A stretch of 64,000 bases of DNA from Echinarachnius parma (taxonomy: Eukaryota > Echinodermata > Echinoidea > Clypeasteroida > Echinarachniidae), in assembly GCA_037951105.1 (NCBI GenBank), contig JBAMJV010000852.1, positions 117,736 to 181,735 of the forward strand, read 5' to 3'. The translations under genes and the position numbers were made by a program. This document shows, in pieces, positions 12,651-56,100 of this stretch (within the stretch, counting starts at the first letter, position 1; each line of letters opens with the position of its first letter). Below the pieces are notes generated by a model that had not been told where the DNA came from, ran no database searches, and was given only the letters and a program-made list of their open reading frames with translations.

Positions 12651-12774
12651 ACTTGGTCTCGCAATATTTCGACAGGTGGTCTCGGCCGCGAACAAATTGG
12701 TATTGGTCCGGTAAACGGCAAATCATCCCCCTCCCCCCCCCAGGTGTGAGAACCTGTCTACGCCACTGGATATG

Positions 12775-13149
12775 AAACGGGCAATGATATAATGGATGTA
12801 AAACGGGCAAAGGGTGTAATGGATGTAAAACGGGCAAGGGGTGTAAAACGGGCAAGGGGTGTAATGGATGTAAAAACGGGCAGTGTGAAGATATGAAACG
12901 GGCAATGGTGTAATGGATGTAAAAACGGGCAAAGGTTTAGTGGATGTGATAGGGGCAAAGGGTGTAATAGTGTGAGACAGGTCAGGTGGAATGGGTGTGT
13001 AACTGGTAAGGGGGGTTATGGATGTGAAACGGGCAAAGGGTGTAATGGATGTGAAACGGGCAAAGGTTTAGTGGATGTGAAACAGGCAATGATGTAATGG
13101 ATGTAAAACGGGCAAAGGGGATGTAAAAACGGGCAAAGGGGGTGTAAAC
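12775..13149. repeat. Minisatellite, left block (GGATGTGAAACGGGCAAAGG units)
   Basis: Units of about 25-30 bp built on GTGTAATGGATG(T/G)AAAACGGGCAA in tandem. Interrupted at 13150 by a TIR element and resumed at 14897. Minus-strand 'HPLPVSHP'-like frames across it are repeat artefacts. Confidence 0.95.
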
Positions 13150-14896: not shown

Positions 14897-16195
14897 AAAA
14901 ACGGGCAAAGGTTCAGTGGATGTGATACGGGAAAAGGGTTTACTTAGTGTGAGACAGGTCAGGTGGAATGGGTGTGTAACTGGCAAAGGGGTTATGGATG
15001 TGAAACGAGCAAAGGGTGTAATGGGAAACGGACAAAGAGGTTTAGTGAATGTGAAACAGGCAATGGTGTAATGGATGTAAAACGGGAAAAGGTTTAGTGG
15101 ATGTGATAGGGGCAAAGGGTTTACTTAATGTGAGACCGGTCAGGTGGACTGGGTGTGTAACTGGCAAGGGGGGTTATCGATGTAAAACGGTCAAAGGGTG
15201 TAATGGATGTGAAACGGGCAATGGTGTAATGGATGTGAAACGGGCAAAGGGTGTAATGGATGTGAAACGGGCAAAGGTTTAGTGGATGTGATAGGGGCAA
15301 AGGGTGTACTTAGTGTGAGACAGGTCAGGTGGAATGGGTGTGTAACTGGCAAGGGGTTTATGGATGTGAAACGGGCAAAGGGTGTAATGGATTTGAAACG
15401 GGCAAGGGTGTACTGGATGTAAAACGGGCAAAAGTTTAGTGGATGTGATAGCTGCAAAGGGTTTACTTAATGTGAGACAGGTCAGGTGGATTGGATGTGT
15501 AACTGGCAAGGGGGTTATCGATGTGAAACGGGCAAAGGGTGTAATGGATGTGAAACGGGCAATGGTGTAATGGATGTAAAACGGGCAACGGTTTAGTGGA
15601 TGTGATAGGGGCAAAGGGTGTACTTAGTGTGAGACAGGTCAGGTGGAATGGGTGTGAAACGGGCAGACCTGTGTGTAATTGATGTGAAACGACCAAGGGG
15701 TGTAATGGATGTGAAACGGGCAAAGGGGTGTAATAGATATGAAACGGGCAAGGGGGAATGGATGTGAAACGGGCAAGGGGTGTAATGGATGTGACAAGGG
15801 CAAAAGGTGTACTTAGTGGGAAACAGGTCAGTTGGGATGGGTGTGTAACGGGCAAGGGGGTTATGGATGTGAAACGGTCAGCATTTAATGAATGTGAAAC
15901 GGGCAGGTGTTTAATTGATGTGAAACGGGCAGGGGTGTAATGGATATGAAATGGGCAGACCTTTACGTAATTGATGTGAAACGACCAAGAGGTGTAATGG
16001 ATGTGAAACGGGCAAAGGGGCGTGATGGATGTGAAAGGGGCAAGGGGTGTAATGTATGTGAAACGTGCAAAGGGGTGTGATGGATGTGAAACAGGCAAGG
16101 GGTGTAATGGGTGTGAAAGGGGCAAGGGATGTAATAGATGAGAAAGGGGCAAAGGGTGTAATGGATGAGAAACAGGCAGGATTTTATGGATGTGA
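14897..16195. repeat. Minisatellite, right block
   Basis: The same units as at 12775-13149, with a higher-order pattern: a segment with GTGATAGGGGCAAAGGGT, GTGAGACAGGTCAGGTGGA and TGGGTGTGTAACTGGCAAGG recurs at about 14930, 15105, 15288, 15450 and 15605. The same segment begins at about 12945 in the left block. Confidence 0.95.
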
Positions 16196-16249
16196 ATTTT
16201 ATTATGTGAAATGGTTAGGTGGATGAGATTACATGAGAAAGCAAAGGCA

Positions 16250-21104: not shown

Positions 21105-24100
21105 CTGAAAAGATAAGAATTGGGGATTCCATTATACGATAAAGGCAAGGTTCGACATTAGCAGTGGCCCGATGGCCCGGGGCCACTGCAAATTAGCATT
21201 AGGCCACCAAATTTAATAGATTTAATTGCTTAAAGAGATAGTTGAGTATTGGTCAAACTTTACTTTAGTAACCAAAACCTGCACCATTACGGTACAAAGT
21301 AATAGTTATAAATTCACCATGCTCGAAAAGTATACACAATTACACACGACTAAGTAAAACCCCTGTTATCATTCAAAAAGAGCTGTTACAACTCAAGAGG
21401 GCGCTATTTAAAAAAATGACTGGTTTTAGCCATTTTTCATACAAAATTGTGCATTTAATGTTTTGTTAAAATAATGATTCAATAGAGATATCATCAACGA
21501 CTTTTTAAAAACATATTCAGATTTTTTTCCAAGTAGTCTTTAAGCATTTTTAATTTTTTTTTCTAAAAAGTCTAAATATCCCCCGGTGTGGTGCTAAATC
21601 CGTGACCTGCGAAATTCGTACCCAGTAGCAAATGCGCATGCGTTAGACAGTTATGGTGCGTGTCTTGCGAAAATCGTGACCATTATTATGCAGCGATTTC
21701 ATGCTAGTAACAAATTGACACATGTTTTATCAAATTTTAAATGGCGTGAATGGAATTTCTTAATCCACCGTCGGGTTTTGACAACACTTTGTACCGCAAG
21801 GAGCCTCAAGGAGGCATTTTGCATGCTTTATTACAAATGGCATGAATGGGAACAAATTTTGCAGGCAATTTTCCCAAAAGGTGCGCATGTGCATTTGCGA
21901 CTGCGTACGGATTTAGCGTGACACCGGTGATTGCCGGTGAAGAAGCTTTTGAATAAAAATATACTTATGGATATTTCAGCCATTTCTGAACCGATTTTGA
22001 TCAAATAAAGTTTATTCTGTCATTAAAATTGTATGTTCTTTCAAATTTGACAGTCAGTTTTTCATTATCTCACAAAAAAATATTGGGGGGCACTTCGGGA
22101 AAAACCAATACTCAACGGTACCTTTAATTGCACTGGCCTGAATGGGCAACTAAATATTACATCATTTTCAATGCTCTTCTTTGTAAAGGGCCATTAGATT
22201 CAGCTTTCGGGCCACTAGAATTTGAAAAACATTGTTTTTAATAATAACAATTATAAATAACATTTGTAAAGCGCTTAATACATGAACATACTGTAGGTTT
22301 CTAAGCCCTGTACATAAAGAGATACAAGAATTACAACATAATAAGTACAAATCAGTAAGAAAGATAATACAGATAAAAAATAATATTTACTTGCCAGACT
22401 AGGCTACAAGGCAATAAAAGTAAATTACTAACATTCAAATTAATGAAACATAAATTCTCCTGTTCAAAAACCTGTCTATAAAGACCATCCAAGGGACCCT
22501 GAAAAAGTGGTCTTTAGAGACAGGTTCATTAACATGTCAACTGCATTCAAGGAAGTAAAGATTGGTGGTCTCTATACTAGACAGGTGGTCTTTACATACA
22601 AGTGGTTGCTTGATCAGGTTTGACTGTATAACCTATGTGCACAGTCATGCAGAAAACAATGCTGTGAAAGCTTGCAGTCATGTACATGGCAATCACGAGG
22701 TAAAACTAAAATGTCTCTATCAAAATAAAGATTAATATTTACCCATTAATCTGTCATGCATCTCGTTCACTGGAATAAGCAGTACTTCTGTGAATTCACC
22801 AGCGGCTGTCATAAAAAATAAATAAAAAAATAAAGGGAAAGAAATATTTTATACAACATATATCTTCAGTGACTAAAACCTATTTGATATCATTAAAAAA
22901 CGAATACATACATGTACCCTTATTGTTGAAAAGTTGTGAATGTGATTATTTTCTTTAAAAAAAATAATCTGAGTTATGCAGAGCTCCCCAGAGTTAGCTT
23001 GGGTTGCCCAAGTTCCCCAAAGTAGGGACCGTAGTTGGGATACTCATCACAGCATCATAGAGGGGCTTTAGAGAACTGCAATGGCAGTAGATTTCGACCT
23101 TTGACCTAGATTGTTTACCAACGCAGCCACTTTAGGAGCGGTTGATTTGATAAGGGCCTTTGTGGAGCATATAGGTACACCTGTAACAAGTAGTTGGGTA
23201 GGAATGCTTCCCAGGAAGTGGAAAGTGTGCATGTCACATGCAGATGGATTGTGTGTACATGTGTATATACACATGTATATCAAATTAGCAAAGGAGATAA
23301 TCTCTTGCTAAGCAAAGTGATATGCTGATCAATCAAGACTCTATGATGTAAAATGATAATAAAATTATCATAAATAGAAGAAATTAAATTTGCACTATCA
23401 TGGGATAACTTAAATAAACAACTAGATGGATCTTAGTCGAAAATGGTGCCTCCGCCATTGTGCGATTTATATATCAAGCCCAAATTAACATGCACTGAAT
23501 TAATTTGTCAACTCAATTTTGATAGTAATCTGTCTACCAGATCTGATATATCACAATTATAATGAGCTTTTTTTTGCATGAGCCATGACCTTGAACTTTG
23601 ACATAAAGACCCCAAAATCTTATAATTTGATTAACTCCCCAAGATACAAATAGGTACCAAGTTTGACTGGTTATTGAGATATTGCAATTACAAGCTATTT
23701 TTGCATGGGTCCTGTGACCTTGACCTTTGACCTCATGACCCCAAAATCTGCAGCTACAATGGCTTCCTGAGATACATTCAGGAACCAAGTTTGATTGAAA
23801 TCTGACATTCAGTTCTTGAGATTATGCAACTACAAGTTCATTTAGCACATATATTGAGCCCTGTGACCTTTGACCGCATGACCCCAAAATCTACTCAGTT
23901 CATTGGCGCCCCAAGATACATACATGTACATGAACCAAGTTTGGTGAGAAACTGTTAATCGGTCCTTGAGATAACGCGATCACGAGAACGGGACGTACGT
24001 ACGTACATGTACGTACGGACGGATGGACGGACAACCCGAAAACATTGGCCCGGATTCACAAAGGAGGTTTGTAGAAGGTTTGTACAAACCATGGTTTATC

Positions 24101-27100: not shown

Positions 27101-30100
27101 TATGTCTAGTTTATATGCACATGTGCAAGTACACAAAGTATAACTTTCACCTTTAACTAATTTATTTTAAATTTGTTTACCATATAACCTAAGCTAGGCT
27201 ATCAAGAGATGCACATGCACAAGATACACACGATGTTGCAAGGTGCACAAGAGATGTACTGATAAATACATTCATAACTTTGTATCTTTACCTGTACATG
27301 TACAAAGTTGCAAGATGAAGCAGAGATACCTGGATCTAAAGCTGTAGCTGTAATGAAAAAAACAAATATGGTTAATACATAATAATGTTCTGTTAACACA
27401 CAATGTGCTTCTCAATATAAACGTTACCACTCAATTTACTCACACAGTGTGAGAGCATCTAAATTATAAAAACGAATGCTAGAAATGAACTTTTCACATT
27501 CTAGTGGCTCAAAACCCCAAAAACTTGTATCCCCTGACTTAGTAAATACAGTACATGAGCTGCCATGTAATATTTTTGGATATTACATGGCACTGTTACA
27601 TGGCAATTCAGATGATAAAACAGTTGTTAACTTTGCTGTCGGGGAAAATCATGGAATGTTCCCCTCAGGATTTTAAATGCTATTTCGTGAAGAAAATAAG
27701 TCCCTCGACTACGTCTCAGGACTTATTTACTCTTCCCTCAATAGCATTTAAAATCCCTTGGGAGTGGAACATTCCGTGCTTTTCCCTCCACCACCAGTTA
27801 ACAACTGTATACTGTTATATTTGGTTGCCCATTCGGGTCAGTGGATTTAACCCATTCAGGACGGCTTGATTTTGCTATAACATGCATTCTCCATACACCC
27901 ACACCCAAGTATTTTCGGGACTAGTCCTAAATGGGTTAAAGCATCGATAGAAATTGGTGGCCCAAGGATAATTTTTAGTGGTCACTGGCCCCTGGCCAGC
28001 AGGCCCTTTAGGGGTGGGGGTCGAGCAATAATCCATACGCTTGCTAAATATCAATATTGTGGGAGAAGGGGTGGGGCAAGTAATTTCTTACTATATCCAT
28101 ATGTGACTCGCTTATAGCCCGGTCACATATCAACAAATTGCGCAAACGTATGTCAAACGGAGAGCTAAATTTTTCATCCGTTCTATGCGTTTCTTGTCCG
28201 TTCCTTGTCCGGTGATGTACGTTGTTCTATGTTTTGTACATGAAGCAATGGAGACGACTTTCATCACCGGATAATTTAATTTCGCAAATTGTCTATTCGT
28301 TGGGCATACGTTTCCGCTATCCGTTGATATCTGACCGGGCCATATATAGCAAAACCCGGCACTTGTTGGTAATTCATGTTTTGAAGAAATGGGCATTTTA
28401 ATTTCACACAGTGTGTGCTAAAGACCTATGATTGTAAAATTGAAACAATCATATCTTCGCAAATTATTGACCAATTAGTTAGAAAAAGCATCAAATGAAA
28501 GCTTGTGATGAGGTGTGAAAATCTACTGTTGGACTTACGAGGTGAAACTTGCAAGACTGTTCCTGTGTACCCAGTCTCCTCCTTAAGTTCTCTTATTGCC
28601 GCTTCTTCTGCACTCTCATTGGAATCAATCAAACCTAGAAATAAAATTACAATCAAAGTACACATTTTTAGATTCATATAATGCATACATATCAAAGGCA
28701 ACTAAATTTCTTTTTAACAGGTTTTTGTGAGGATTTTGTGAGTGTTTACTTCCCAGCCAGGAAAGTTGTTCCTGCTTAATGCAACCTCCTTCATTTCACT
28801 TATTGCTGCTACTTCCCCAGTCTCATTGGCATCTATCTAGCCTATAAATAAAGTTACAATAAAAGCACAAATGTATAGATTAATATAATGCCTATAGATA
28901 ATATCAAAGGCAACTAATTATTTTTTGTTTTAATAAACATGTTTTTGCCGGTATGTGCTTCCCAGCAACGGAAGTTATTCCCGTTTATCCAACCTCCTTC
29001 AGTTCAACTTCAATCTCCTTCACTTATTATCAATGTTGTTTCCGAGTCCGAGTTCGAGTCCAAGTCCAGACCATCCAAATCAAAGTCCGAGTCCGAGTCA
29101 AACTCTTTTTCTTTCTTTTTTTTCTTTTACATTTATTCCTTTTCTTTACCAAATGAAATCAATCTATCACTCAATCAAGTGATTAAAAGGAATCACTTCA
29201 TACATAGGGACACTGATTTTCCGCGATCGCGGAAAATCGCGGAATTTACCATTTGAAACGGAAAAACGTTAAAAAAAAGAAGAAAAAAAAAAGTTTTTTT
29301 TTTTTTTTTTTTTTTTTTGTGGGTGAAAATCATGATTTTACCCTACTCATTGAATTTTGTATGGAGTTCTATGTAAACAGAATTTGCAGTTTTTCACATG
29401 TACAAAGTCTATGGCAAAACGGAATTTCCATTTTTCAGGCAGGTAAAAACGGAATTCCAGATTTTCTGAAACGGAAAAGGCCTGTTTTTTAAACGGAAAA
29501 TCAGTGTCCCTACATACAGACAAACATGCAATCAAACATTGACCGGCCTCTAGCTGCACTCGGCCCGAGTCATTGAGTTCGCGACCTTCGAGTCCGAGTC
29601 CGAGGCCAGGGTCAGCCTCGGGACTCGGCCTTGAGTCATCCAACACTGCTTATTATCATTTCTTCTGCACTCGCATTGGCGTCATGAAACCTAGAAAATG
29701 TAGATTAATACACTGCCTACAGATAATAGCAAAGGCAACTAAATTTCTTTATTAATTAAAACATGTTTTTTGCCCGTATGGACTTCCCAGCAAGGGAAAT
29801 TGATTCCGTTTATCCAACCTCTTTCAGTTCAGTTCAACCTTCACTTATTGCCCCTTCTTCTGCACTTTCATTGGCATCAATCAAACCTAGAAATAAAGTT
29901 ACAATATCATTACAAATTAATAGATTAATATAATGCCTATACATGTATATATCAAACGCAAGAAAATGTCTTGTTCAATAAAGAAGTTTTTAGACAGTAT
30001 GATCTTCCCAGCAAGGGAAGTTGTTTTTTTCAACCTTCAGTTCAAAATCAACCTCCTTCACTGTTGCTGCTTCTGCTGCACTCTCATTGGCATCAATCAA

Positions 30101-33100
30101 ACCTAGAAATTAAGTTACATTCTTATAGATTAATACATTGCCTACAGATAATAAAAATGGCAACTACATTTCTTCATTAATTTAAAGAAGTTGTTGCAGG
30201 TATGGACTGCCCAGCAAGGGAAGATATTTCCGTTTATCCAACCTTCTTCAGTTCCACCTCAGCCTCCTTTACTAATTGCTGCTTCTGACGCACTCAATCA
30301 ATCAGACCTAGAAATAAATATACAACTAGATGGATCTTCGAGTGCGCGCAGTCGAAAATGATGCCTCCACCATTGCGCAATTTACATATCAAGCCCAAAT
30401 TAACTTACACTGAGTCAATTCTGTCAACTCAATTTTGATGGTAATCTGTCTATCAGATCTTGCCATATCACAATTATGAGCTATATATAAGTGACCATGA
30501 CCTTTGCCCTCATGACCCCAACATTTCATTAGTTTATTAGCTCCCCAAAATTCAAATTATATGTACCAAGTTTGATGGTTATTTGTCAACTGGTTCTTGA
30601 GATTTTTTTTACATGAGTCCTGTGACCTTGACCTTTGACCTCATGACCCCAAAATCTAATCAGATCATTGGCTCCTCAAGATACATACATATACCAAGTT
30701 TGTTCAAAATCTGTCAATCGTTCTTCGAGATAATGCGATCACAAGCTATTTTTGCATATATAATGAGCTCTTTGACCTTTGACCTCATGACCCCAACATC
30801 TAATCAGATCATTGGCTCTCCAAGATACATACATGTACTAAGTTTGGTCAGAATCCGTCAAACGGTCCTTGAGATAAAGCGATCACGAGCTATTTTTGCA
30901 TATATGATGAGATCTGTGACCGACCTCATGACTCCAAAACCTAATCAGATCATCGGCTCTCCAAGATACATACATATACCAAGTTTGGTCAGAATCCATC
31001 AATCGGTCCTTGAGATAATGCGATCACAAGCTATTTTTGCATACATAATGAGCTCTGTGACCTTTGACCTTTGACCTCATGACCCCAAAATCTAATCAGA
31101 TCATTGGCGCACCAAGATACATACATGTACCAAGTTTGGTCAGAATCTGTCAACTGGTTCTTGAGATAACGCGATCACGAGAACGGGACGTACGGACATA
31201 CGGACGGACATACGTACGTACGTACGTACGTACGGACGGACAGACAACCCGAAAACATAATGCCTCCGGCAACTTCGTTACGGAGGCATAATAAAGGTAC
31301 ACATTTGTATACATAAATATACGTGTCAAATGCAACTAAATTTATTTCTTAATAAATAATTCAGTTTATGCCAGTATTAATTGATTTCCCAGTGAACGAA
31401 GTTGTTCTTGTTTATCCAACCTCCTTTAGTTCACTTATTGCTGACAGCAGCTTCTTCCGCAGTATTATTCGAGAAAATCAAACCTAGAAACCAAAAACCT
31501 AGCCTAAAATTACAATAAAATATGGTCATGTTTAAGGTGGAGACATTTTCATCATACCTTTTCGTAGATTTTGTAGAATTCTGCACTATTTCAAGCTAGA
31601 TCTGAAATATCATAATCAATGAAATCAACTTTGAAATAAGTCTCCTAAATCAAATTATTAATCAATCAATTATAATAGAAATTAAACAAAAATATCAAAA
31701 AGGCAAACTTACTTTCCTATTTATAGAACACCTTCTTTAACAAAATGATTGGCAATATTAGCTTTGCTTCAATACAGTACGTACCTGCAGGGAATTCTAT
31801 GGTGTAGCACTTGAGTGGTGGTCTAAACTGCTTGACCAAGACTATGCAGTCATAATGCAGCAGTCTGTTTAGTATGGCTATCATGGCAACAGCTGGAAAT
31901 AAAGACACAAGGAAAGAAAAGCAGACAATTTCATGAAAAGACATGCAAAATTGTGAAATGATGTACACATCAAATATTCATCAAATGCACAAAGCTCACA
32001 GCCTAATTCTTGTACACTGCCATAAAGTCTTGAATGCAGCACAGCACGTCACGGGCTAGGCATTAGAGAAGGAGTGGCATCTTTTGGGGGATAAGTGCCA
32101 CGTTCGCAGTTGGCAGTTGGTGTCGTCATCATCGTTGGTATCCCCATTCCTTCGTGTTCATTTCACAACGTCCCATATCTCTACGCATAGCCTATTGAGG
32201 GACTTCCACGTTTCCAAATCCTACCCATGACCAGGGGGTAGCTGTTCTTTTTAAATTAGTACATGCAACAATGCACAAATTAATTTTTAATTTCAGGGGG
32301 CTACTTTTTCAATCTGATGGATATCACAAAATATTTCACATAAAACCCTATGGTAATTTTAGGGGCTACCTACTGATTTCAGGGGGCTATTTTAAAAATT
32401 AGGGGGCAAATTTGCCCTCCGCCCCCATATATTTCCTACCCTGACATGCAAGTGGGATTAGCAGTTTCTGATACAAGGTACATTGTAAAAGGTAATGTAC
32501 CACCCCCCCCCCCCCCCTCCACTCATACTCTTACACACAACCAATCACTAGTGTCTCCAGCCACTTAGCCCAACCACTTACAAAACCATACTTCTTTGTG
32601 CACCTGCATGGATTGGACCAAACACCACAACCCAAAATGCTACTCCTCTCATTTAATTGGATTCAAGATAAAAGATATTACTAACCATCTGCGGTACCCT
32701 TATTTGTTGATTTGGTTGTCCTGGTAACTGATTCCCACGTCTTCTCTCGTCCCGCAGGATCCTTGTAGGTGATTTTCTCTAGAGAAAGCCACTTCTCTTT
32801 GTGGAGCGTCTGAAATCATTTTTAGGAAAAAAGGCAAATATTACACATTAAAAAAAAAACTATTTACTTTTACATTATTTACATCCTCATCTAAATCATG
32901 GCAATTAATAACTTGAAATGTAATATCCAACGCATACATGGGCCCAAGGGACCGATTACAGACCAGCGACATTTACCATGGTAATTTGCATCATTGGCTC
33001 TAACTCATAGATGTCAACATGCTAGAGTAACATACAAACCAACAGAACATAGTAGAGCACACATTCCACCCTTATTCATTCAACCTAAATGATTTTACAG

Positions 33101-49667: not shown

Positions 49668-49925
49668 TGTGACCGGCTATAGCAAAACCCTGCCCTTGTC
49701 GGTAATTCACGTTTTGAAGAAATAGGCATTTTAAGTTCACATAATGCCGTGTGTAAAAGACTTATGATTGTAAAATTGAAACAATCATATCTTCGCCAAT
49801 AATTGATCAATTTGTTAGAACAAAGCATCAAATTAAAGCTTGTGATAAAGCATTTCTAATGGTAAGAAAATCTACATTTTGATTTTTACAGACAAGTGCA
49901 GGGTTTTGCTATATAGCCGGTCACA
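49668..49925. mobile_element. 258-bp MITE (TGTGACCGGCTATAGCAAAA ends), TA target duplication
   Basis: The TIRs TGTGACCGGCTATAGCAAAA and CCCTGCCCTTGTC match the inverted right end. TA at 49666-49667 and 49926-49927. Confidence 0.88.
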
Positions 49926-52582: not shown

Positions 52583-53118
52583 CTACGACATTAGCGGCTT
52601 CTGCGATTCAGGGTCGGTGCTCTTGCTGCGCTGAGCCTCCGCAGCAGCAGCCCGGTCCATGTCCTTCTTCCTCACATAGGTGTACAAGCCAGAGCCACCC
52701 ATAACCATGGCGGCGCTACTCCACCACAGCGCCGTCTTGACCTGGTGGAAGTACGCAATCGCAAGCATGGTCTGCGCGCCCGCCTTGGCCGTGCCGCTGA
52801 TGTTGTGCGTCAGCGGACTGGTCACCTTGATCTGCAGCCCGGTCACGAAGCCGATGGCGAACCCGAACAGGCCGCTAGTCGTCATCATGGACCAGAAGGA
52901 GGCGCTGCCGAGATGCTCGAAGCCGGTGATGACCGAGAACTCGCCGGACACCAGCATGAGAGGCAGGAAGAGGACGATGGCGTTGAGGTTGTTGTAGAAC
53001 ATGAGGAGGGTGATGTTGTTGTCTACCGCTGGGAGGATCTTCTTGGTAAAGATGGCATTGAGGGACACGCACAAGCTGGCTAGCACACCATAGACGACAC
53101 CCATGTATGACAGGGTAC
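52583..53118 (-). CDS. SLC35C1: SLC35C1 coding exon 6 (stop codon)
   Basis: 177 codons plus stop, starting [20 protein letters not shown] and ending QKPLMS. Acceptor ATACAG. Notably GC-rich compared with the surroundings, as expected of coding sequence; antisense frames on the plus strand are shadows. Confidence 0.97.
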
Positions 53119-56100
53119 CTGTATGGAACAAATGAAGAATGGAAAAGAAATGAGAAAAGGCTATCAAAAATATGTTAAGGAAACAGATGCTGTATGCATT
53201 TTCTTTGTAATGATAGCATTGAGGGAGACGCACAGGATGCAGATGATGTATGACATGGTACCACTACTAACAAATGAAGAAATAGAATGGTGATAATGAA
53301 ATTCATGAGAAAAAGATATTTAAGAGAGAATGTACAGGTGGTTTTTAACTTCTAATACAACTACTAAAGAAAGGGAGGGTACCCGTACAAACAAGTAGGA
53401 TGTATGACTGTTCAATAGAATACAAAATAGGGTCCTTCATCTTAGTAAATGAACATAAACTAACAAGAGAGAAAAAACAAACCATCACAAAGAAATTACT
53501 GAATTCTTGTATATTTTATGCAATTCAGGCATTGCACCATGTTTGGTCTAATATGAAAATTGGAATCCACTGTAGTATGATTAAAGGAATAATTCCAGAT
53601 GTATAGTTTACATCAACCTGTACAGGACTGTTGTGATTTTCAGATCTGCTACTGTATAAGCCAATATTTTTGCGTACAGATATTTTCGCGAATGAGAGGG
53701 TAACAGACATTTTCGCGAGTTGTTGATTTCACGTTCGGCATTATGTGGGTTTGCCACGGGACTGAAAATCAGTACAATCATGTCAAAAATGCAGCGCCTT
53801 TATGCTAATAAAACTGCTCATAAAATACAGAAAACTTGTAAATCAATATTAGTACCAGTATTTCTAATATCACGGAAATATGACTATGCACTGTTGAGAT
53901 TTACCTCGGTTATGGAATTTCTGACAAAAATAAGACTTAGAAGACCTCGGTAGCCGATCGTTTCTTCTGCATACTTCGGCGAATCTAGCAGCTATAGCGC
54001 CGCTATTTTTGGCTATTTCTTGCCAGCTAGCGTCATACGTTTACGTCTTAGCGATTATCATTGTGTTCGTGCAACAAACCGATGACTCCGATACAGATTC
54101 ATTTTCTAATAGGATATACATAGTTCAACTTCACATGCAAGCGAAGCAGCGAACATATGTGTACAATACATGCAAGAAATGCACTGGTACCTACGCAATC
54201 AATACGACTCGTATGACAGCCCTGGCGCATGTTTTTTCCTTGTTTTTGCGCGCATTTTTTCTTGTTTATTGATTCTAAATTCCATGCAATCACGTAAGTA
54301 GACAAATTATTAGACCTGTGTAGATCTAGTTCAGGTTATATATCTAGATAAAATGAGCTTCAGTATGCTTGTGTCCTTGCGTTAGCTACCATACCACTAG
54401 CACTACTCGATGTCTACCGGGGGCCTGGCCGCCCAATTGGCCAAGTGCATGTGAATGCCTGCTGACAAGATGTATGAATGACTGACAATATTTTCGCGCG
54501 TTGTTAATTTCGCGAATGTATATCGATACGCGAAAATAAAACCCTCGCGAAATTAACAGCTTATACAGTATCAGAATGTATCGCAAACTTTAGTTTAAAA
54601 ACATGAGTCCCCAAAACATTATCTGAAATTTGAAACTATCCATTCAATATGCTGTCAATTTGTCAATGTATTTTATCTGCAATTGAGGTGGTGGCCCAAT
54701 GTGAATATCAAGTTCACATTTGGCCTAACATGCAGGCAGCCTGGTTAGTTTCATAACAAGTCTTGAAAAGGTCAAACAATAAGTATAAACCATGCACAAA
54801 GAACATGGAATGGGTTCCAATCAACCAAAAAAATACACGGGGGCAAAGGGCGATTCGCCCCGATACCTTTAAAATCGCCCCCGTGAGCCACGGAAAGCGC
54901 CAGAAACGTACCAAACATGGCATAATCAGATCGATCAAATCATGATAATCATTTATTAGACCCTTGAGCAGTGAAAACGATGTTAAAAAAAAAGAGCCCC
55001 CGTGAGCCCCAAAATAGCCCTCGTGAATAATTTCACGAGGGCGTTTTTTTCCCTCAAAATTTTCAAAATCGCCCTCGTGAAAAAAAATTTTTTTTTTTGG
55101 TTGGTTCCTATGTTATCAAAAACCTGCACAGAAAGAACTAAACTGAGAACAAACATCTTACTTCATATGTGTATAAGCAAAAGCAAAGAAAACCTACTGC
55201 CTTTGTAAAAATTAAAAGACGTGCAAACTTGAGGGGTGATAGCCATAATTTTGAATACATTCAAACCTGTTTTAGGGACCACTTGTCTATACAGGGTGGC
55301 CCAGAAATAACGGAACGGGGCACTTCCCAAAATAAAGCAACGAAATGACTGGGTCCATCGGATAGTGTGTCTTTTCAAATGAAAATTGATACCAAGAACA
55401 TTAATTTTGGTCGTGTAGTTTTTGTTTGAGAGCGCTGTGAGTGACACTATGTCAGGGTTCATTTTTCTTCAATTTTGACTGACCTATTGGCTAAAGAATG
55501 ACACGAACGGCTCGGCATAGAATTACGGTGCTGTGGCTATTCAGTCGAATGCACACTAACAAAGGTGTCCGCATCATTGTGCATCGTAATTCTATAACGA
55601 GCCGTTCGGGTCATTCTTTAGCCAATAGGTCAGTCAAAATTGAAGAAAAATGAACCCTGACATGGTGTCACTCACAGCGCTCTAAAACAAAAACTACACG
55701 ACCAAAATTAATGTTCTTGGTATCAATTTTCATTTGAAAAGACACATTATCCAATGGACCCAGTCATTTCGTTACTTTATTTTTGGAAGTGCCCCGTTCC
55801 GTTATTTCTGGGCCACCCTGTATAGCAGCCAAACAGCCGATTATAGTGACAAAACTAAAAGTGACGCCCTGCACAGAAAAAATGTCATCGCAACAGTCAA
55901 TAGAGGCAACATGTATACAGTGGCCATTTTTCTTGTTTCCCTTTGGTGGTCACTGTATTTTTAAAGGGATAGTTGAGTTTTGGTAGAGAGGGCGCTACAC
56001 AAAATAACTTTTTTGTGAGATAATGAAAAACTAAGTGTCAAATTTGAAAGAGTACTATACAATTTTAATGGCAGAATAAACTTTATTTGATCAAAATCGG

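Follow-up and report, generated by a model that had tools for sequence, protein, structure and literature searches.

The window, a 64,000-nt stretch of contig JBAMJV010000852.1 (assembly GCA_037951105.1) of the echinoid Echinarachnius parma, carries a NUDT5-like gene on its minus strand. The exons were placed by tblastn with the human NUDT5 protein; matches lie at 32794-32684 (E 5.6e-8), 31893-31783 (E 2.7e-13) and 28635-28540 (E 7.9e-8), while the first exon was not located in the window by this search, and possible later exons are seen at ~27336 (motif only), ~22800 (E 0.38 match) and ~21084 (E 8.4 match). The two exons that flank the intron between 31785 and 28634 (~3150 nt), when joined, match PDB chains of human NUDT5 at E about 4e-24 (2.9e-8 for the best group under another name) and Pfam NUDIX at E 1.1e-12. 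On the basis of these two exons the best match is the ADP-sugar pyrophosphatase NUDT5, and the sequence contains a Nudix box; the gene is predicted to be a NUDT5 orthologue, in agreement with the preliminary description of this DNA. The phase of the working Nudix-box exon was read off the exon joins. The features of the locus are collected in Table 1.

Table 1. Exons flanking the intron, dead copies (D1-D6) and inserts of the NUDT5-like locus, in window coordinates; first stops are counted in codons from each copy's own acceptor.
Feature	Coordinates	Strand	Acceptor	First stop	Remarks
Preceding exon of NUDT5-like gene	31785..31892	-			exon 3 of the preliminary description; ends CAG/gtacgt; human NUDT5 tblastn 70% over 37 aa, E 2.7e-13
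Working Nudix-box exon	28539..28634	-	28634		96 nt, phase 1-1, 32 residues, donor ctC/gtaagt
Dead copy D1	28734..28942	-	28841	codon 2	
Dead copy D2	28943..29767	-	29690	codon 12	split by insert 29033-29658
Dead copy D3	29768..29988	-	29886	codon 18	
Dead copy D4	29989..30191	-	30102		open 37 codons, without Nudix motif
Dead copy D5	30192..31369	-	30307	codon 5	split by insert of about 30331-31290
Dead copy D6	31370..31520	-	31483	codon 18	outermost; homology detected to ~37 nt upstream of acceptor
626-bp insert	29033..29658	not assigned			10-bp direct repeat CTTATTATCA on both sides
About 960-bp insert	about 30331..31290, edges approximate	not assigned			mostly ~144-bp tandem units; relative at 23435-24032

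Six degenerate exon-like units (D1-D6) are present inside the intron before the Nudix-box exon, on the same strand as the gene. An AG lies exactly at all seven acceptor positions, the working one included, and the acceptor-to-acceptor spacings are 207, 849, 196, 216, 205 and 1176; the long gaps between units are due to the two inserts, and when these are set aside the spacing is 196-223 bp. Minus inserts, the working unit and D1-D5 measure 199-221 nt, and the array with its inserts fills roughly 2890 nt of the intron. The seven-unit array, its acceptor starts and its steady period near 205 bp after removal of two inserts had all been proposed in the preliminary description and are borne out by these values. 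Compared with dinucleotide shuffles, the 96-nt exon beats all 1000 in five of the seven segments aligned (D1, D2b, D3, D4, D6); 2/1000 shuffles reach its score in D5 and 14/1000 in the short half D2a. D6 was also recovered by nhmmer at 31520-31418 (E 4e-9) with a profile built without it. The profile search found no further copies in 31521-31783 or 28000-28577; an eroded eighth copy near 31645, suggested by eye in an alignment, gained no support from it and was dropped. The intron therefore holds sequence homologous to an exon of its own gene, as in a degenerate tandem exon duplication, and this sequence is laid out as a local tandem repeat array, with head-to-tail units of near constant length that are nearer to each other than to sequence elsewhere, within the sensitivity of the window and genome searches. 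The periodicity is present and the units do not group with unrelated repeats, and the derivation of the units from the exon stands.

The surroundings of the array are rich in other repeats. Inside the 626-bp insert a second element seems to be nested at 29205-29512, with exact 19-bp inverted ends (29205-29223 / 29494-29512) that are overlapped by a 24-bp palindrome (29215-29238). Downstream of the working exon there is an inverted-repeat pair (28113-28171 / 28286-28344, 78%) and a repeat at 28345-28509, which has a relative at 49678-49846 (88%) and an edge 29 nt downstream of the end of the working exon. Further away are two arrays of 27-bp tandem units, one with about 49 copies at 14899-16196 and another at 12767-13119. 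Local direct repeats form 12 other clusters in the window, and tandem growth is therefore common here. A minus-strand ORF of 216 aa (52583-53233), for which Pfam gives no family at 0.01, reads like a nucleotide-sugar (GDP-fucose) transporter.

The extent of homology to the working exon was followed with profiles built from the dead copies only, each dead copy being scored with itself left out. The profile of the intron part scores 76.2 on the working unit and 35.3-73.4 on five dead copies (maximum of 300 random windows 19.8), and that of exon bases 1-57 scores 64.9 on the working unit and 32.4-70.9 on the six dead copies (random maximum 16.4). Over the next 63 profile columns the dead copies score 37.8-61.0 and the working unit 15.3, a value equalled by 19/600 random windows. 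Columns 1-18 of this part match the working unit at +58..+81 with 0/3000 random windows as good, by a split chosen post hoc; from +74 on, the working unit is without a clear match to columns 18-45 or 18-63 (208/3000 and 477/3000 random windows). A breakpoint at +57 was considered and dropped, as the similarity continues over +58..+77. The identity of the working exon to the dead majority is 19/20, 19/20, 12/20 and 13/17 in successive segments up to +77, then 6/19 at +78..+96 and 5/11 at +97..+107.

The dead copies thus appear to consist of the acceptor, the intron preceding it and about the first 77 of the 96 exon bases, and are not recognisable as whole exons; the last 19 exon bases and the donor, for which homology is not detectable, would be either absent or changed beyond recognition. 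This departs from the preliminary description, in which complete exons had been copied. None of the six was found to span the entire exon together with its two splice sites, with some doubt left by weak similarity past +77: when all of the 3' part is included in the alignment, the score is reached by 48 (D3), 90 (D6), 360 (D1), 758 (D2), 764 (D5) and 1548 (D4) of 2000 shuffles. The duplication breakpoint probably lies inside the exon, or the founder lost the exon end before spreading; an exon end that was never copied is somewhat favored over one lost in the founder.

Several changes are common to the dead copies. In the alignments the Arg codon AGA reads AGT in five of six, which agrees with the Arg-to-Ser change reported earlier for several copies; in D6 the AGT is present but displaced by its own small insertion. 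Coding changes such as this one are assigned to the side of the dead copies, since the Nudix motif is intact in the working exon and 19/32 of its residues are as in human NUDT5. The sequence TGGATAAAC is found in four copies (D2, D3, D5, D6), D1 reads TTAAGC there and D4 has lost the site; five of the six dead copies keep the stretch, and all of these lack the same three bases. By alignment, the TAA shared by the four copies would follow the 3-base deletion and fall on the Tyr codon, within the matched part; its earlier placing at the Gly-Tyr codons is therefore upheld, but in no copy is it the first stop when read from the copy's own acceptor. A position was counted as shared if the dead copies, with one exception at most, have one base and the working exon a different one; five such positions occur in the first 77 bases of a curated alignment, against a mean of 0.008 for independent copying (0/2000 simulations reach five), on the assumption of dead-side changes, as a change in the lineage of the working exon itself would be counted as well. 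An automatic alignment gives eight shared exon positions (0/2000 simulations), of which three depend on the alignment; the intron part has four (0/2000 simulations). Since the shared changes exceed what independent copying would give, one already broken founder was probably amplified, as had been suggested before, although homogenisation among the dead copies at a later time would look identical. An extra insertion of 12-16 bases is common to D2-D5, is missing from D1 and is matched in place by 7 other bases in D6; the middle of the array therefore seems to have grown last. The tree of the seven units, which the preliminary description had put forward as a check, was built and is poorly resolved, with bootstraps of 25-70.

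None of the six dead copies keeps the Nudix motif in translation. Splice sites were scored with a rough matrix, by which the working donor reaches 6.2 and the best GTs of the copies 4.3 (D5), 3.5-3.6 (D2, D3, D6), 3.2 (D1) and 1.8 (D4); by this GT scoring none of the six has a donor to equal that of the working exon. The GT of D1, GAA/GTAAAC, is close to the place of the old donor. An open frame combined with both splice sites, as in each alternative of mutually exclusive exons, is not seen in any copy: five of six have early stops, the sixth (D4) is without the motif, and the GTs are weak.

The best explanation of the array is passive growth in tandem of a founder that lacked a good donor, through which the intron end and exon start came to be repeated about every 205 bases, and we hold this explanation with good confidence; the array is most likely passive DNA growth and not a working device. 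In the order of events and the mechanism of growth that we infer, a short tandem duplication would have copied ~205 bp, comprising the intron end, the acceptor and the first ~77 of the 96 Nudix-box exon bases; by ending inside the exon it would have produced an upstream part-copy lacking its donor. Because the upstream product would be without a good donor, splicing would have kept using the original exon and the product would have been free to decay; exon definition is expected to pass over a donor-less part-copy, which would therefore be neutral and able to grow. The founder may then have gained the Arg-to-Ser change, the 3-base deletion and the TAA; in this broken state it may have spread, through slippage or unequal crossing-over, into an array of six or more units, with the middle copies D2-D5 amplified last and the two elements inserted later.

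D6, the outermost copy, speaks against this explanation: after duplication of an entire piece it would be expected to retain the start of the unit upstream, and this was not found by the profiles, detected homology stopping near 31520. Simple alignment upstream of D6 gives 11/1000 for one unit and 52-937 of 1000 for the other five, and one genome search with 31510-31786 returned itself as the sole match. It is possible that the start of the unit was deleted or replaced later.

The main rival to a truncated birth is a copy of the whole exon that lost its end before spreading. The exon, perhaps once a mutually exclusive alternative, would have been duplicated entire, and the founder, before it was amplified, would have lost the end and the donor, for instance in a deletion of ~10 bases, and decayed; this overlaps with the lesser branch of the preferred explanation, in which the loss also takes place in the founder. 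Being 96 nt long with phase 1-1, the exon would keep the frame when copied whole, which speaks for this reading, as does the faint resemblance beyond +77 (48/2000 for D3 and 90/2000 for D6; profile 19/600); however, the similarity past +77 is near background while the bases before it match well, and there is no copy with the Nudix motif or with a donor equal to the working one. A whole-exon origin is accordingly considered possible but rather unlikely.

Readings that give the array a function are less probable still. The copies may be decoy 3' splice sites, consisting of acceptors only, that slow or regulate the splicing of the intron: the AG is retained in six of six dead copies, in five of which its score equals or exceeds that of the working acceptor (a level also reached by 7 other AGs among the 199 of the stretch), and the acceptor region is more alike among the dead copies than the average column (0.842 vs 0.695). 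Circular windows as conserved as this region number 17/195 for the dead copies, 13/208 for D1-D5 and 7/181 for all seven units, which is borderline given that several windows were looked at, and is not read as selection. As far as the available text of the source goes, the decoy exon of OGT needs its 5' splice sites, and decoy sites can be weak (PMC12017769); the GTs in the copies are weak, 4.3 at best vs 6.2, and none is as good as the working donor. We regard decoy sites as very improbable, and would say the same of a splicing brake, in which six acceptors without good donors, lying before the sole true acceptor, bind splicing factors and set the rate of intron removal as a donor-less exon satellite; were it true, the locus would test exon definition in a natural setting. 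If the array were a reservoir for gene conversion of the working exon, this would agree with the working unit being, up to about +77, no further from the dead profile than the dead copies are from each other, but such closeness is also to be expected of the terminal unit in any tandem array, and with all six copies broken conversion would be expected to damage the exon; this reading is barely credible. Among the reasons for expansion offered in the preliminary description, passive growth fits best, the decoy has borderline evidence at most and the reservoir is not shown. It is equally hard to credit that a dispersed element was the source of the copies and that the exon is merely alike. Dispersed repeats do sit nearby, but no support for such an origin was found, and the exon encodes a conserved Nudix box; in two DNA searches of the own genome (1.2 Gb), one for the working unit (161 bases), the other for a dead unit (217 bases), the 4 and 5 matches, query included, all lie within the array, and a dispersed-repeat origin of the units was rejected. 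These searches skip very common words and left out some known array copies, and diverged copies elsewhere could therefore be missed too.

Ordinary local tandem repeats (minisatellites) grow head to tail and diverge in a star-like manner, with a middle that is seemingly youngest. The array shares these traits and differs by its seed, which holds coding sequence and a splice acceptor. A literature search turned up no exon-derived intronic minisatellite, which does not mean that such an arrangement has never been published. Degenerate intronic matches of duplicated exons have been described as a class (the "intronic matches" of Exonize, PMC12343006; Ivanov and Pervouchine 2022, PMC9013439), and the array resembles the cases in the accessible parts of these papers in being exon-like intronic sequence of the same gene, beside the parent exon and on the same strand; it is unlike them in consisting of part exon plus intron, in its six extra copies, in having no working-like donor and in having apparently been amplified once broken. 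Pseudo-exon A of Drosophila Gr39a is likewise a tandemly duplicated exon, with its function lost in some species (PMC2204066); it has decayed in a gene that retains functional alternatives, and an array of broken copies is not described in the portion of that source at hand. The decoy exon of the retained intron 4 of OGT is also an intronic exon-like sequence with 3' splice sites that is rarely spliced in, but by the same partial account it has and needs 5' splice sites (PMC12017769), whereas the dead copies keep none like the working donor. We class the locus as a tandem array that was seeded by an exon and lacks good donors; it is a variant form of decayed exon duplication, and no function is assigned to it.

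The array illustrates that an intron can grow several-fold by repeating its acceptor and part of its exon while both flanking exons stay intact. It also brings together in nature several similar 3' splice sites, a good donor following one alone, and could serve to test how well exon definition protects a gene against upstream false acceptors. If the growth was passive, the locus would represent ordinary tandem growth from an unusual seed.
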